This document shows, piece after piece, positions 57,951-64,000 of a DNA stretch of 64,000 nt. A model generated the notes under the pieces. It worked only from the letters and a program-made list of their open reading frames with translations, did no database searches and had not been told where the DNA came from. Position numbers and translations under genes: made by a program. The stretch comes from Akkermansiaceae bacterium (GTDB lineage: Bacteria; Verrucomicrobiota; Verrucomicrobiia; Verrucomicrobiales; Akkermansiaceae), in the NCBI GenBank assembly GCA_028822935.1, contig JAPKCM010000010.1:1-64000 (forward strand). The letters run 5' to 3'. Within the stretch, counting starts at the first letter, position 1, and each line of letters begins with the position of its first letter.

Positions 57951-58010
57951 CAGACTCTCACTCCCGAAGACTTTGCCAACCTCATCGAATGGCTACGGTC
58001 CCAAAGCTAG
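57951..58010 (+). pseudogene. C-terminal tail relic of a PVC-type CxxCH cytochrome/dehydrogenase protein
   Basis: QTLTPEDFANLIEWLRSQS*; compare SPGDVANVISWLKKL in the 11687-15178 gene. Confidence 0.4.
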
Positions 58011-60349
58011 CGGGGATAGAGTAGGAAGGGCGCACGCCGCTTCTGAAAGTCTGCAAGCATTCGGTCGGAAATGACTCCGATCTCGGCAGGTGCCTTCCCG
58101 TCGAGGATGGCCTGCAGGGTTTCTTGATCGCCCAGCAAACGAGCCATCTTGGGGAGATTCAATTTCTCGCCATACAATCGATGCAGCGTCGTCGCCAAAT
58201 GAATATTGAGTGCACTACTGCGATACTGATCCCGATTGGTCAGGATGAGTTGCACCCCGCGACACTCCTTCCCGGCAAAGACACTGGCATCCGGAGTGAA
58301 GCGGGTGGGCATAAATCGCACCCCCGTGGGAGCCCCTTGATTGAGCGCCGCAGCCAGCTTCATGTCATCGATGTAGGGCGCACCCAGTAGTTCGAAAGGC
58401 GTGCCCGTTCCGCGTCCCACACTGAGCTTGCAAAACTCCAGCAGGCCCACCGCCGGATAGAGCGTGGCAGCGTTCAAACTACGCATGTTGGGAGAGGGAT
58501 TCACCCAGGGTTGGCCCACCGCATCGAACCACTGCAGCGGTGAGCCATCTTGGCAACGAATGACCCCCAGATCCGCTCCGAATTTGCGCTCCGAATTGAT
58601 CAGCCGAGCCAACTCTCCCACCGTCATTCCGTGGCGCACCGGAATTTCGTGGACTCCCACGAAGCTTCGCTCACTTGTGAGAACCGGTCCATCGACCGCT
58701 GGGCCCAGTGGATTGGGGCGATCCAGAACGACAAAGCGAAGCCCCTCCTCACCGGCTACTTCTAGGCAATAGGTCATCGTGGAAATGTAGGTGTAGAATC
58801 GGCAGCCGATGTCTTGAATATCGAAAACCAAAGTATCAATCCCCGCCAGTTGCGCCTTTGTGGGACGTCGTGTCTTTCCATAGAGACTATGGATTGGCAA
58901 TCCGGTGGAGCCATCGAGGCCATCTTTAATGGTCCCCTGATCCAGCGTTCCACGGATGCCATGCTCCGGAGAAAAGAGAGCGACGAGTTTGAGTCCGGGC
59001 GCAGTGTGGAGGAGATCAATGGTGGGAATTCTCTCATGATTAATCCCGGTATGATTGGTGATTAGGCCGATTCGACGTCCCCGAAGTTGACGGAAATTTT
59101 CGCGCGTTAAGACATCGATCCCCGTTTGCACCTCGTCCCTTATGGGTGCGGCAGGCTTCGGAGCAAACTTCGTCACTAAGGGCGGGAGAGCATCCGGCAC
59201 CTTGGTGAAATCGAAGTCAGAAACGGCGAGAGCGGCGAGGGTCCCCAATTCCCACTGGAGATCAATGACACTTCCTTTTTCACTCGGGTGATTTCGATTG
59301 GAGAGAAAAATGATAAAGGTCCGCGAGAAGGGGTCGATCCAAAGTCGCGTCCCGGTCCAACCGGTGTGTCCATAGCTCCCCACCGGAAAGAGGATACCCC
59401 GGGGACCGGCATAGGGGGAATCGATATCCCAGCCCAAGCCCCGCCGGGGAAGTCCTTCGGGCGATTGCACACTCGTCATCAACTTCACCGTTTCCACCTT
59501 GAAAATTCGTTTACCATCCAGCTCTCCACCGCCGAGAAACATGCGCGCATATTGGGCAAGATCACGGGTCGTCAGAAAGAGACCAGCATGCCCCGCCACG
59601 CCCCCCATCCGGCGGGCGGTCGGATCGTGCACGACACCTTGTAGAACACTCCCGTCGGGCATTTCCGTGGTGGGCGCAATTCGATCCATCTTCTTCAAGC
59701 CCTTCGCCGCAAGCGGACGAAAATGGCAGTCTGTCATCCCCAGAGGGGCAAAGATTTCGCGCTGGCAGAATTGCTCAAGCGGCTCCCCGGTAATCCGTTC
59801 CACGAGGAGACCGAGGAGGATGAAATTGATATCGCTATATCGATAAGTTTTCCCCGGCTCTCCCCTTAAGGGTTCTGCGCAGGCCGCCTCGAAAGCTCCC
59901 TTCTTTCCCGACCATTCATTGCTTTTCGGGAGGCCTGCCCGCAGGGCTGAGGTGTGGGTCATCAGTTGCCTGATTGTGAGCAACTCCTTTCCCTGTCCTT
60001 TGAACTCCGGGAGATAGCGACTCACCCGGGCGTCCAATTCCAAGCGCCCGGCCTCGATCAACTTCATGACCGCCGGTGTAGTCGCGACAACTTTGGTGAG
60101 GGAAGCCGCGTCGAAAATCGTCGCCGTGGTCATCTTCTCGATCCCTGGAACCAACGCCCGGGAACCGTAGGCTTTCTTGTAAACGGTCCCTTCTCGTTCG
60201 AGATGAAAGACCCCTCCCGGAGTGCGGGCATCGGTGATCGCCTGCTCGATGGCATCATCAATCTCCGCCAATCGATCCGGTGAAAAATCAGCGGAATACA
60301 AGGGCGACACAATCACGGTAAGCCACAGCACAAACAGATGAATCTTCAT
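58007..60349 (-). CDS. Fusion of a beta-lactamase-family serine hydrolase and a DUF1343/NamZ-like exo-beta-N-acetylmuramidase
   Basis: DAASLTKVVATTPAVMKLIEAG and YRYSDINFILLGLLVE (serine hydrolase); RRIGLITNHTGINHERIPTIDLLHTAPGLKLVALFSPEHGIRG and DIQDIGCRFYTYISTM (DUF1343/NamZ). Confidence 0.87.
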   Translation of the reverse strand: MKIHLFVLWLTVIVSPLYSADFSPDRLAEIDDAIEQAITDARTPGGVFHLEREGTVYKKAYGSRALVPGIEKMTTATIFDAASLTKVVATTPAVMKLIEAGRLELDARVSRYLPEFKGQGKELLTIRQLMTHTSALRAGLPKSNEWSGKKGAFEAACAEPLRGEPGKTYRYSDINFILLGLLVERITGEPLEQFCQREIFAPLGMTDCHFRPLAAKGLKKMDRIAPTTEMPDGSVLQGVVHDPTARRMGGVAGHAGLFLTTRDLAQYARMFLGGGELDGKRIFKVETVKLMTSVQSPEGLPRRGLGWDIDSPYAGPRGILFPVGSYGHTGWTGTRLWIDPFSRTFIIFLSNRNHPSEKGSVIDLQWELGTLAALAVSDFDFTKVPDALPPLVTKFAPKPAAPIRDEVQTGIDVLTRENFRQLRGRRIGLITNHTGINHERIPTIDLLHTAPGLKLVALFSPEHGIRGTLDQGTIKDGLDGSTGLPIHSLYGKTRRPTKAQLAGIDTLVFDIQDIGCRFYTYISTMTYCLEVAGEEGLRFVVLDRPNPLGPAVDGPVLTSERSFVGVHEIPVRHGMTVGELARLINSERKFGADLGVIRCQDGSPLQWFDAVGQPWVNPSPNMRSLNAATLYPAVGLLEFCKLSVGRGTGTPFELLGAPYIDDMKLAAALNQGAPTGVRFMPTRFTPDASVFAGKECRGVQLILTNRDQYRSSALNIHLATTLHRLYGEKLNLPKMARLLGDQETLQAILDGKAPAEIGVISDRMLADFQKRRAPFLLYPR

Positions 60350-60589: not shown

Positions 60590-61342
60590 TTACTTGCGAC
60601 GACGAATGAGGCTAAGACCGGCAATGCTCAAAAGAGCAAGTCCAGTGGAGGAAGGCTCGGGAACACCCGCAACGTCCATCTGGATGTAGTCGAAGTTTGA
60701 CCAGCGGGAGGTCGAACCAACGTTATCCGAGGTCAACTGCACGTAGTTGTCGTCATTTGCACCTGCAGTGCCGTTGACGTCAGCGAGGGTGAATGCATTA
60801 CTTGTGAACTGCGTGCCAATCGTTCCATTGGTGTGGCTGACATTACCCATGGCAATGCCGTTGACGGAAATGGCGAAGTCGTATTGCCCGGTTCCAGTGT
60901 TGTTGTCATTAAGGTCGAGCATTGCGAATGAGACCGTGAAGACGTCAGTTGCGGTGTGGCTTCCATCAAAGTTGAAGTGGAAGCGGTTGGTGGTGTCGCC
61001 GCCGGTGACCGCACGCTCGACGCCAGCTTCCGCGGCTGCAACGATACCTACAGTGCTATAGACCGTTCCACCGTCCACCTGATTGGCGTAGTTTCCGGGG
61101 AAATAAAAGTCGTCATCTGCCTGCTGGTTGGTGGCTGGGCTGGCCGGATTGCCTGGGAGCACGTTCGTAGGGCCATTGCCTTCCTGAACGAAAGTGGTGG
61201 TGCCGGAGGAGCCGGAGTTGCTCCAGATTTCTGGCCCTTGTCGGCCTGCTACGGTACTATCGCCAACCGTCCAAACTAAGGCGGAGAAGCTGTTGGCTGC
61301 GCCCAAAGCGAGGACGCTGAGAGCAAGTTTTGTGGTTTGCAT
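60590..61342 (-). CDS. PEP-CTERM sorting domain protein
   Basis: Signal peptide MQTTKLALSVLALGAANSFS; C-terminus VPEPSSTGLALLSIAGLSLIRRRK. Confidence 0.92.
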   Translation of the reverse strand: MQTTKLALSVLALGAANSFSALVWTVGDSTVAGRQGPEIWSNSGSSGTTTFVQEGNGPTNVLPGNPASPATNQQADDDFYFPGNYANQVDGGTVYSTVGIVAAAEAGVERAVTGGDTTNRFHFNFDGSHTATDVFTVSFAMLDLNDNNTGTGQYDFAISVNGIAMGNVSHTNGTIGTQFTSNAFTLADVNGTAGANDDNYVQLTSDNVGSTSRWSNFDYIQMDVAGVPEPSSTGLALLSIAGLSLIRRRK

Positions 61343-61557: not shown

Positions 61558-64000
61558 ATGCGTAGATACAAGCTCCCTCTCCTTGCCGTCGCAATTCTCG
61601 GCATAGCGGCCTTTTTCTTTTTCAAATCCCGTCAGAAAGGCCAGGAAACCGACACCTTGGTCAGCGAGGTGGTCGGCGGTGAGGAATTGATCCTCAAACT
61701 CACCCCGATGTTGGGCGAAATCTCTCGAGACCTGTTGAATCTACAACTTCACGGATCGGGTAATGAATTCGCGGATTCCGTCACTGTAAGAGACCTTGAG
61801 GGAGAAGTAAGCTTTGAAGCCAAGCCGCTTGCCGGACAGCTGATCATCGGGCAAGAGCTCAACTTGGCGAAAGCCTCTCGGCAAATCCCCGGGGCGGAAC
61901 TTTACCTCTGGGCCCCCCTCCTCGAAAAGATCGACTACTTCGAGCACGCCAAGCTCAAGATCATCAGCGGGTCATTCCTGTCCGACGAACACGCCGAATT
62001 TGAAGGCCTCGTCAAATTCAGTGGCTTGGCTCGAAATAAAGGAGGTTCGTGGTCCAGCCTCTCGGGAAAACAATCACTCACCTGGAGCAAACAAACTGAG
62101 GGCGACTGGAAGATCTCAAAGTGGGAAACCAAAATCTTTTCGACTGCGACCAGCGCTCATCAGTTTTTCTCAGACCGGCTTGATGAGGCTCTCCCCGATT
62201 TCACCGACCGGGCCAAAGCCCGACTCTCCATTCACGAGGAAGAACTTATCAAATATTACAAAAGCGGAAAAACCCGCGCCCGCTCTTACGATTTCGCACC
62301 CATCGCCATGAACCAAAAGCCGGGCATCTCGGTCGTCGACATTGACCAGGACGGATACGACGACCTCTACCTCATGGTCCGGATGGGGAAAAACCTCCTT
62401 CTCCGGAACCGTGGCGATGGCACCTTCGAAGAAATCGCCAATACTCTGGAACTCGCCATCGAGGGGAATTCGACCTGCGGCATCTTCGCTGATTTTGACA
62501 ACGACGGTGACTCCGATTTCATTCTGGGACGAAGTGTCGAAGGCAGCCTCTATTTCGAAAATACCGGCTCTTGGTTCGAGGAGATCAAACAAGAGACCGA
62601 ACTCCCCGCCCTCGTCGTCTCCATCTCCGCAGCGGACTACAATCGTGACGGCCTTCTCGATCTGTATTTTTCGACATACCGAATGGGCCAGCTGGGAGGC
62701 GGGAATTCCGGTCTGGCTCCGGAAAACGATAGCAGCAAATGGCCGGAACGATTTCTATCTGCCGAAAATGCCGCGGAATTCCGCAAAAGATATCGAGACG
62801 AAACAAGCACAGGTGGTGATATCGATTTCCTCAATCAAGTGGGCCCGCCCAATGTGCTCATGGTTAATCTGGGAGGCGGAAAATTTGGCCCGGCTCCGGA
62901 AGGGTCTCAAATTAACGTCTGGAAGAACACCCTCCAGGCCACGTGGTCCGATATTGACGAAGACGGCGATCCTGATCTTTATCTCTCCAACGATTTCTCG
63001 TCCGACCATCTTTTTCGCAACGATGGAAAAGACGGCTTCGTCGATGTGACCAAAGAATCCGGCCTCACCACTTATGGATTTGGCATGGGAGCCAGCTTCG
63101 GGGACTACGACAACAACGGACATCAGGATCTCTACGTTTCCAATATGTTCAGCAAGGCCGGCCGACGCATTCTCTCAAGTTTCGACGGAATCGATCCCAA
63201 TTATCTCCATTCGGTTAATGGCAACATCCTCTACAAAAAGCTCGATGGCAAAACCTTCGAACGCGTCTCCGGTTTGGAACCGCCCTCTCTCCTCGTCGCT
63301 GAGGCCGGATGGTCCTGGGGAGGCCAGTTTGTCGATTTCGATAATGACGGAGATCTCGATATCCACGCCCTCAGCGGGTATTTCACCGCACCCAAGGAAC
63401 TGGCCTCGGAGGTCGACTTGTGAAGTGACCTCTGGCGCACGGTCGTGCGCACCGACGATGACCTCGCCGGCGGAGCCGTTCGCAATTCGGAAAAATGGAA
63501 CACCGACGAGATCAACAGTGGAAGTAATTCCCGAATGAATTCCAGGCTGGAGGCTGGCGATGAGATCATCGACGGAAAGCTCTTCGTTCACTCGTTATCC
63601 GGCAACGAACGCAATCGACTTTTCCTGAACGAAAATGCCGGGAAACATTTCAGTGACCACTCCTCTCTATCGGGATTGGACAGCAATTCCGACAGCCGCG
63701 GCTTCGCTCTCTTGGACTACGACCGCGACGGCTGGCAAGACATCGCCTTAGTCAACGCCAACCAACCATTGAGCCAACTTTTCCACAACGAGCTGGGGAA
63801 TTTTCCCGACATGAAAGGCGGAATGATTGCGATCCGCTTCAGAGGAGGAAGCACGACAATGACCGCCTCAAATTTAAGCAACCGTGACGGATACGGAGCG
63901 ATCGTCGAAGCCGTCCTCAACGATGGCACTCTTCTCAAAAGAGAACACCGCTGTGGTGATGGTTACGCTTCTCAAAATAGCGCCACCATGATCATCGGCA
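61558..64000 (+). CDS. CRTAC1/ASPIC-UnbV family FG-GAP repeat protein with in-frame TGA at 63421-63423 (candidate selenocysteine), continuing past window end
   Basis: Start MRRYKLPLLAVAILGIAAFFFF; FG-GAP motifs (DIDQDGYDDLYLMVRMG, DFDNDGDSDFILGR). After the TGA the same frame has no stop for 192 codons and reads ...NRLFLNENAGKHFSDHSSLSGLDSNSDSRGFALLDYDRDGWQDIALVNANQPLSQLFHNELG.... Confidence 0.85.
63435..63450 (+). promoter_or_regulatory. Candidate bacterial SECIS hairpin
   Basis: GCGCAC-GGTC-GTGCGC perfect 6-bp stem, 4-nt GGUC loop starting 17 nt after the in-frame TGA. Confidence 0.5.

Follow-up and report, generated by a model that had tools for sequence, protein, structure and literature searches.

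The locus considered here raises the question of whether an in-frame TGA in a gene of the CRTAC1/ASPIC-UnbV type, from an Akkermansiaceae bacterium, ends translation or is read as selenocysteine (Sec). The gene reaches the end of the window (the whole stretch of DNA that was analysed, 64,000 nucleotides) and continues beyond it. According to the original prediction, a single TGA interrupts the frame, which then remains open to the window end with its constraint apparently intact. The frame is indeed uninterrupted from this TGA to the window end, and at contig level it is closed by a TGA at C86:64570-64572, 382 codons past the in-frame UGA. Two start codons can be considered, of which ATG 61561 is more likely than ATG 61501. 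Pfam matches to the product lie above the cut-offs (FG-GAP_3, 6.3e-38; FG-GAP, 4e-16; UnbV_ASPIC, 9.8e-14), and, if the UGA is read through, the protein would have an N-terminal anchor and an FG-GAP propeller, together with an ASPIC/UnbV domain and a thioredoxin domain of the ResA-like type that contains the motif WCSAC. The features are collected in Table 1.

Table 1. Features of the CRTAC1/ASPIC-UnbV locus (window positions unless a contig is named)
Feature	Position	Strand	Remarks
CRTAC1/ASPIC-UnbV gene, predicted selenoprotein	61561..64000 in the window, to C86:64572 beyond it	+	1003 aa from ATG 61561
N-terminal hydrophobic anchor/signal segment (MRRYKLPLLAVAILGIAAFFFFKS)	61561..61632	+	inferred from sequence reading alone
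Peptide motif D-L-U-S-x-x-W-R-T-V-V	63415..63447	+	conserved in relatives
UGA codon, predicted to be read as selenocysteine	63421..63423	+	residue 621 of the 1003-aa form; conserved in 86 distinct homologues; Cys/Ser/Asp alternatives
Putative bacterial SECIS hairpin	63435..63450	+	6-bp stem GCGCAC/GUGCGC, GGUC apical loop 63441-63444; starts 11 nt after the UGA
Start of the ASPIC/UnbV domain	63889..64000, continuing beyond the window	+	residues 777-840; Pfam PF07593

The simplest explanation would be that the UGA is an ordinary stop, brought about by a nonsense mutation, pseudogene formation or a sequencing error, so that the downstream half is either dead or translated on its own from GTG 63445. 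A GTG-started ORF of at least 185 codons does begin there, and UGA also serves as the normal stop of this gene, as it does in 28 of the 80 long ORFs in the genome stretches examined. However, pN/pS past the UGA (propeller/ASPIC part) is 0.23-0.40 compared with 0.16-0.40 ahead of it; because these values are close, the downstream half is translated and constrained, as had been foreseen, and such purifying selection is difficult to reconcile with an ordinary stop. The same is true of S-x-x-W-R, which is conserved between the UGA and GTG 63445. The local context of the codon is VDLUSDLWR, and five residues (D619, U621, S622, W625, and V628) are invariant across 30 full-length relatives.

Another objection to an ordinary stop comes from the spread of the UGA. 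Homologue searches covered one genome per species, together with 58 relatives, and nearly all of the homologues had this TGA at the corresponding column. Among the matches listed for these 58 relatives, each one that spans the column has exactly one stop, which is TGA and never TAA or TAG. In a tree of 100 rows, 86 distinct rows carry Sec and 6 carry Cys, the Sec rows being from Verrucomicrobiota, Planctomycetota, Acidobacteriota, Latescibacterota, Gemmatimonadota, and Rokubacteria (at least five phyla). Genomes that were assembled independently and come from several phyla share this UGA, which rules out a read error, so that the possibility of a sequencing error, named in the original prediction, can be set aside. 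Together with a covarying hairpin tied to the UGA (see below), this leaves hardly any room for an ordinary stop. The source genome itself contains 11 UGA-containing family genes, every one with a GGU(C) hairpin at equal spacing. Thus, the reading as a selenoprotein is supported, but its restriction to a single gene is not, and the locus instead belongs to a widespread multi-copy family, whose genes occur in several copies in the genus of this bacterium.

In this family, the Sec column lies within D-[LT]-U-S-x-x-W-R-x-V, and a second version of the motif, D-L-U-L-P-[FY], is found in Acidobacteriota and Latescibacterota. The latter marks a divergent subgroup (L046, L050, and L051), mostly with a hairpin of its own, GCGCGGU(A/C)GCGC; UGA genes of this subgroup stand in tandem pairs (L050 and L051). 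The DNA motif search also matched unrelated sites on C61, C85, and C121, which were not assigned to the family, and plasmid records yielded only distant CRTAC1 relatives (25-36% identity).

Further evidence comes from the RNA. A GGUC loop closed by GCGCAC/GTGCGC had been proposed 17 nt after the TGA; it is present at this position, at a UGA-to-loop distance of exactly 17 nt. The isolated hairpin has an MFE of -10.8 kcal/mol (z -2.8). However, the 40-nt stretch is no more stable than shuffled sequences (z 0.03), so that stability is no proof by itself and the case has to be built on comparison. At least five of the six stem pairs are formed at 75 of 82 UGA sites versus 6.6% of control windows (1556 in-frame windows taken from the same genes; Fisher p 4e-71). 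Covariation was counted in two independent hairpin groups: 92.9% of cells are paired in the WRTVVR group and 98.6% in the WRQVVS/WRHV group, the latter with 18 double changes, and in each group the covariation score was matched by 0 of 500 shuffles. One paired change alters the protein (Arg..Arg to Ser..Leu, with CG replaced by AU at one stem pair), and the third base of an Arg codon covaries with the first base of a Ser/Thr/Ala codon such that RNA pairing is kept. The contrast with control windows and the covariation in both groups therefore tie the hairpin to the UGA beyond chance. The hairpin is absent in Cys and Asp homologues and damaged in the Ser homologue. In the latter (L047, Bryobacterales), a Ser codon stands in place of the UGA and a degraded hairpin remnant is still visible, which likely represents a loss of Sec.

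The SECIS element of E. coli fdhF has a GGUC-type apical loop at a distance from its UGA similar to that seen here. Compared with the fdhF type, the stem of the family gene is shorter (6 bp) and a bulged U is not obvious; a 5-nt loop is found in roughly half of the family members, and an Rfam search gave 0 matches. With its GGUC loop, 6 bp, 17 nt, and -10.8 kcal/mol, the hairpin at 63435-63450 meets the published bacterial SECIS model (loop of 3-9 nt, stem of 4-16 bp, early G, spacing of 16-37 nt, and MFE <= -7.5; PMC13188914).

Another conceivable reading is that the UGA is decoded as Trp, Gly or another residue, either because the code is reassigned or by generic readthrough, the hairpin being merely a readthrough stimulator. 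RNA structures that stimulate readthrough do exist in general. However, since UGA also terminates this gene, 382 codons later, and the other long ORFs counted above, the code is not reassigned. In addition, the hairpin fits the SECIS model, the main sense replacement at the column is Cys and not Trp, and the full Sec machinery is present and SelA co-occurs with the family. The presence of selA, selB, selC, and selD in the same genome had been set as a check, and all four are found in this assembly (4.59 Mb, 96% complete): SelA (7.8e-121), SelB (wing domain, 7.3e-18), a tRNA-Sec above the gathering score to which ARAGORN assigns the anticodon tca, i.e., UCA, and SelD (1.3e-115), which has an in-frame UGA of its own in the context ASCGG-U-ASK. 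Decoding as another amino acid is therefore extremely improbable. At selD (L174, G000:C53:6429-7358), a hairpin of the GGUC type, as in the CRTAC1 genes, was not seen downstream.

Alignment of CRTAC1 homologues at the TGA, the second check proposed, revealed alternation between Cys and UGA. Two paralogues in the source genome have Cys at the Sec column (KDYCSQFWRHD and KDYCSHYWTQD), and Cys-bearing homologues (L145, L146, L119, L178, L179, and L185) were identified. The caveat that the residue is not in a canonical CxxU motif stands, as Sec is found in neither CxxU nor UxxC, there is no Cys within three residues of it, and the criterion for thioredoxin-type selenoproteins is thus unmet; it should be corrected, however, in that homologues do carry Cys, within the motif DYCSxxW. 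When 384 Verrucomicrobiota genomes were surveyed for strong relatives without TGA, these were found in six genomes, all of which lack selA; the Sec column is occupied by Cys in two of them (G374 and G405) and by Asp in two others (G313 and G388). Both genomes with TGA members in this survey carry selA. Among the 58 close relatives, SelA is encoded in all 29 genomes with strong family matches versus 8 of the 29 others (p 2.6e-9), although this value is uncorrected for relatedness and kinship inflates p-values. Of the 27 UGA genomes from other phyla, 24 have full-length SelA, two have a fragment, and none was detected in G076 (home of L041), which is a MAG. In the family tree, the Cys rows form a separate group, and the Ser (L047) and Glu (L040) rows are placed among Sec rows, which suggests that there were a few losses of Sec. 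It should be noted that the tree is unrooted and that a Sec protein was the starting point of its sampling; the direction of change is not proven.

Three outcomes had been named that would refute the prediction, i.e., no selABCD in the genome, homologues with an unrelated sense codon and neither Cys nor TGA, and reads exposing the TGA as an error. Since all three came out opposite, the reading of the UGA at 63421 as a selenocysteine codon is well supported and almost certainly correct, although Sec insertion is inferred in the absence of protein or selenium data. At the level of sequence, the evidence demonstrates a coding frame, conservation of the UGA, a covarying SECIS element, the full Sec machinery, and a Cys/Sec pair. 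Readthrough, a code change, and a pseudogene were rejected on the grounds of UGA serving as a normal stop elsewhere, conservation, the Sec machinery, and the covarying hairpin. In the proposed mechanism, SelB with Sec-tRNA-Sec (anticodon UCA) would recognise the GGUC hairpin, and Sec would be inserted instead of termination, giving an envelope protein of approx. 1003 residues with an anchor, a CRTAC1-fold FG-GAP propeller, ASPIC/UnbV, and a ResA-like thioredoxin domain.

What such a protein might do is less certain. In the AlphaFold2 model (pLDDT 87.6, pTM 0.88), residue 621, with Sec modelled as Cys, is the first residue of a helix directly following a propeller strand. The best PDB match found by Foldseek is murine CRTAC1 (9etn, E 3.7e-24, TM 0.71 by target length), and the C-terminal WCSAC domain matches ResA (1st9) in structure. 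A WCxxC tail domain is found in 41 of 72 complete family genes, being missing in a sizeable minority, and several family members have Pfam AhpC-TSA/Redoxin domains. In thioredoxin folds, the active-site Cys is likewise at a helix start after a strand. A redox enzyme is inferred from the position of Sec at the helix start, its invariant neighbours, the WCxxC tails, the AhpC-TSA/Redoxin fusions, and the ResA match. Sec would most likely be a redox nucleophile, either of a selenol peroxidase or of a thiol/disulfide oxidoreductase, and may be re-reduced by a fused or separate thioredoxin-like domain. A redox role in the periplasm or envelope is thus probable, but the chemistry, reaction, substrate, and cell location are inferred and have not been shown. 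The catalytic cycle remains guesswork, as there is no second conserved Cys or CxxU and the thioredoxin tail is not universal.

It is also possible, though unlikely, that Sec is inserted for a purpose other than redox chemistry, as a structural residue, a metal ligand in the Asp-rich propeller, or a selenium store. FG-GAP propellers bind Ca2+, no conserved partner Cys of the Sec domain was found among the invariant columns, some members have no thioredoxin domain at all, and the copy number is high. However, most members are fused to ResA/AhpC-like domains, Sec is replaced by Cys, and the position at a helix start resembles that of the active-site Cys mentioned above. The redox reading therefore remains preferred, and the role of a selenol in a secreted calcium-type propeller becomes a question in its own right.

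The family shares its propeller plus ASPIC/UnbV architecture with CRTAC1/ASPIC-UnbV proteins (PF07593 and FG-GAP PF13517) but differs from them in a helical segment that carries Sec and the motif DLUSxxWR and lies between propeller strands, and in the frequent presence of a C-terminal ResA-like domain. With ResA/TlpA-type extracytoplasmic thiol-disulfide oxidoreductases, it has the WCSAC domain in common; whereas ResA takes part in cytochrome c maturation as a stand-alone protein, the domain here is the fused tail of a selenoprotein. As in catalogued prokaryotic selenoproteins, there is UGA-coded Sec, SelABCD, an in-frame SECIS just downstream, and Cys homologues, although most characterised selenoprotein families are thioredoxin-like or metalloenzymes, unlike the CRTAC1-type family. 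A 2026 catalogue comprises 119 prokaryotic selenoprotein families/subfamilies, and its table contains no FG-GAP, ASPIC/UnbV or CRTAC1 family and no DxUSxxW motif (PMC13188914 Table 1). Selenoproteins of planctomycetes have been described, and the main text of that report, as far as it was available, names none of these domains (PMC4807772). NCBIfam gave 0 model matches to the gene product, and no pairing of these domain names with selenocysteine was found in full-text literature, although an earlier listing in a supplement or a recent paper is not excluded. The suggestion that this is a selenoprotein in a family not generally known for one is thus borne out, as no Sec has been reported for CRTAC1 proteins in the searchable literature, and the family is apparently undescribed so far.

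The locus would then represent a selenoprotein family that appears to be unlisted, is widespread and highly multiplied, and uses a fold that is apparently not known for Sec. We lean, with some reserve, towards a new class of secreted selenoenzymes on an integrin/CRTAC1-like propeller, in which Sec is ancestral, which has expanded in Verrucomicrobiota to about a dozen copies in each genome and extends to several further phyla (Planctomycetota, Acidobacteriota, Latescibacterota, Gemmatimonadota, and Rokubacteria), and which has been overlooked because its members are annotated as truncated genes. Indeed, standard gene callers would cut each such gene in two. The host bacteria (marine Verrucomicrobiota, Planctomycetota, and Acidobacteriota) are not mentioned in the 2026 selenoproteome review, and with its 11 genes and selD, this genome of 4.6 Mb counts as selenium-rich.

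As regards the surroundings of the family genes, no conserved operon partner was seen in those listed, save for a convergent pair on contig C8. There (L168, G000:C8, 5307-10601), two UGA family genes are convergent and nearly touching, a pattern that recurs in G004, G010, G016, G023, G025, and G026. The next gene downstream of the present locus, on the same strand and just outside the window (C86:64981-68556; L167:4981-8556), encodes an FG-GAP/ASPIC protein of approx. 1191 aa; no UGA interrupts it, and its residue at the Sec column is Thr. Upstream, a divergent gene (window 60590-61342, minus strand) codes for an exported protein of PEP-CTERM-like type (C-terminal VPEPSSTGLALLSIAGLSLIRRRK), and it is followed on the minus strand by a gene for a 780-aa fusion of serine beta-lactamase-like and DUF1343-like domains (window 58007-60349), as judged from a reading of the sequence only.
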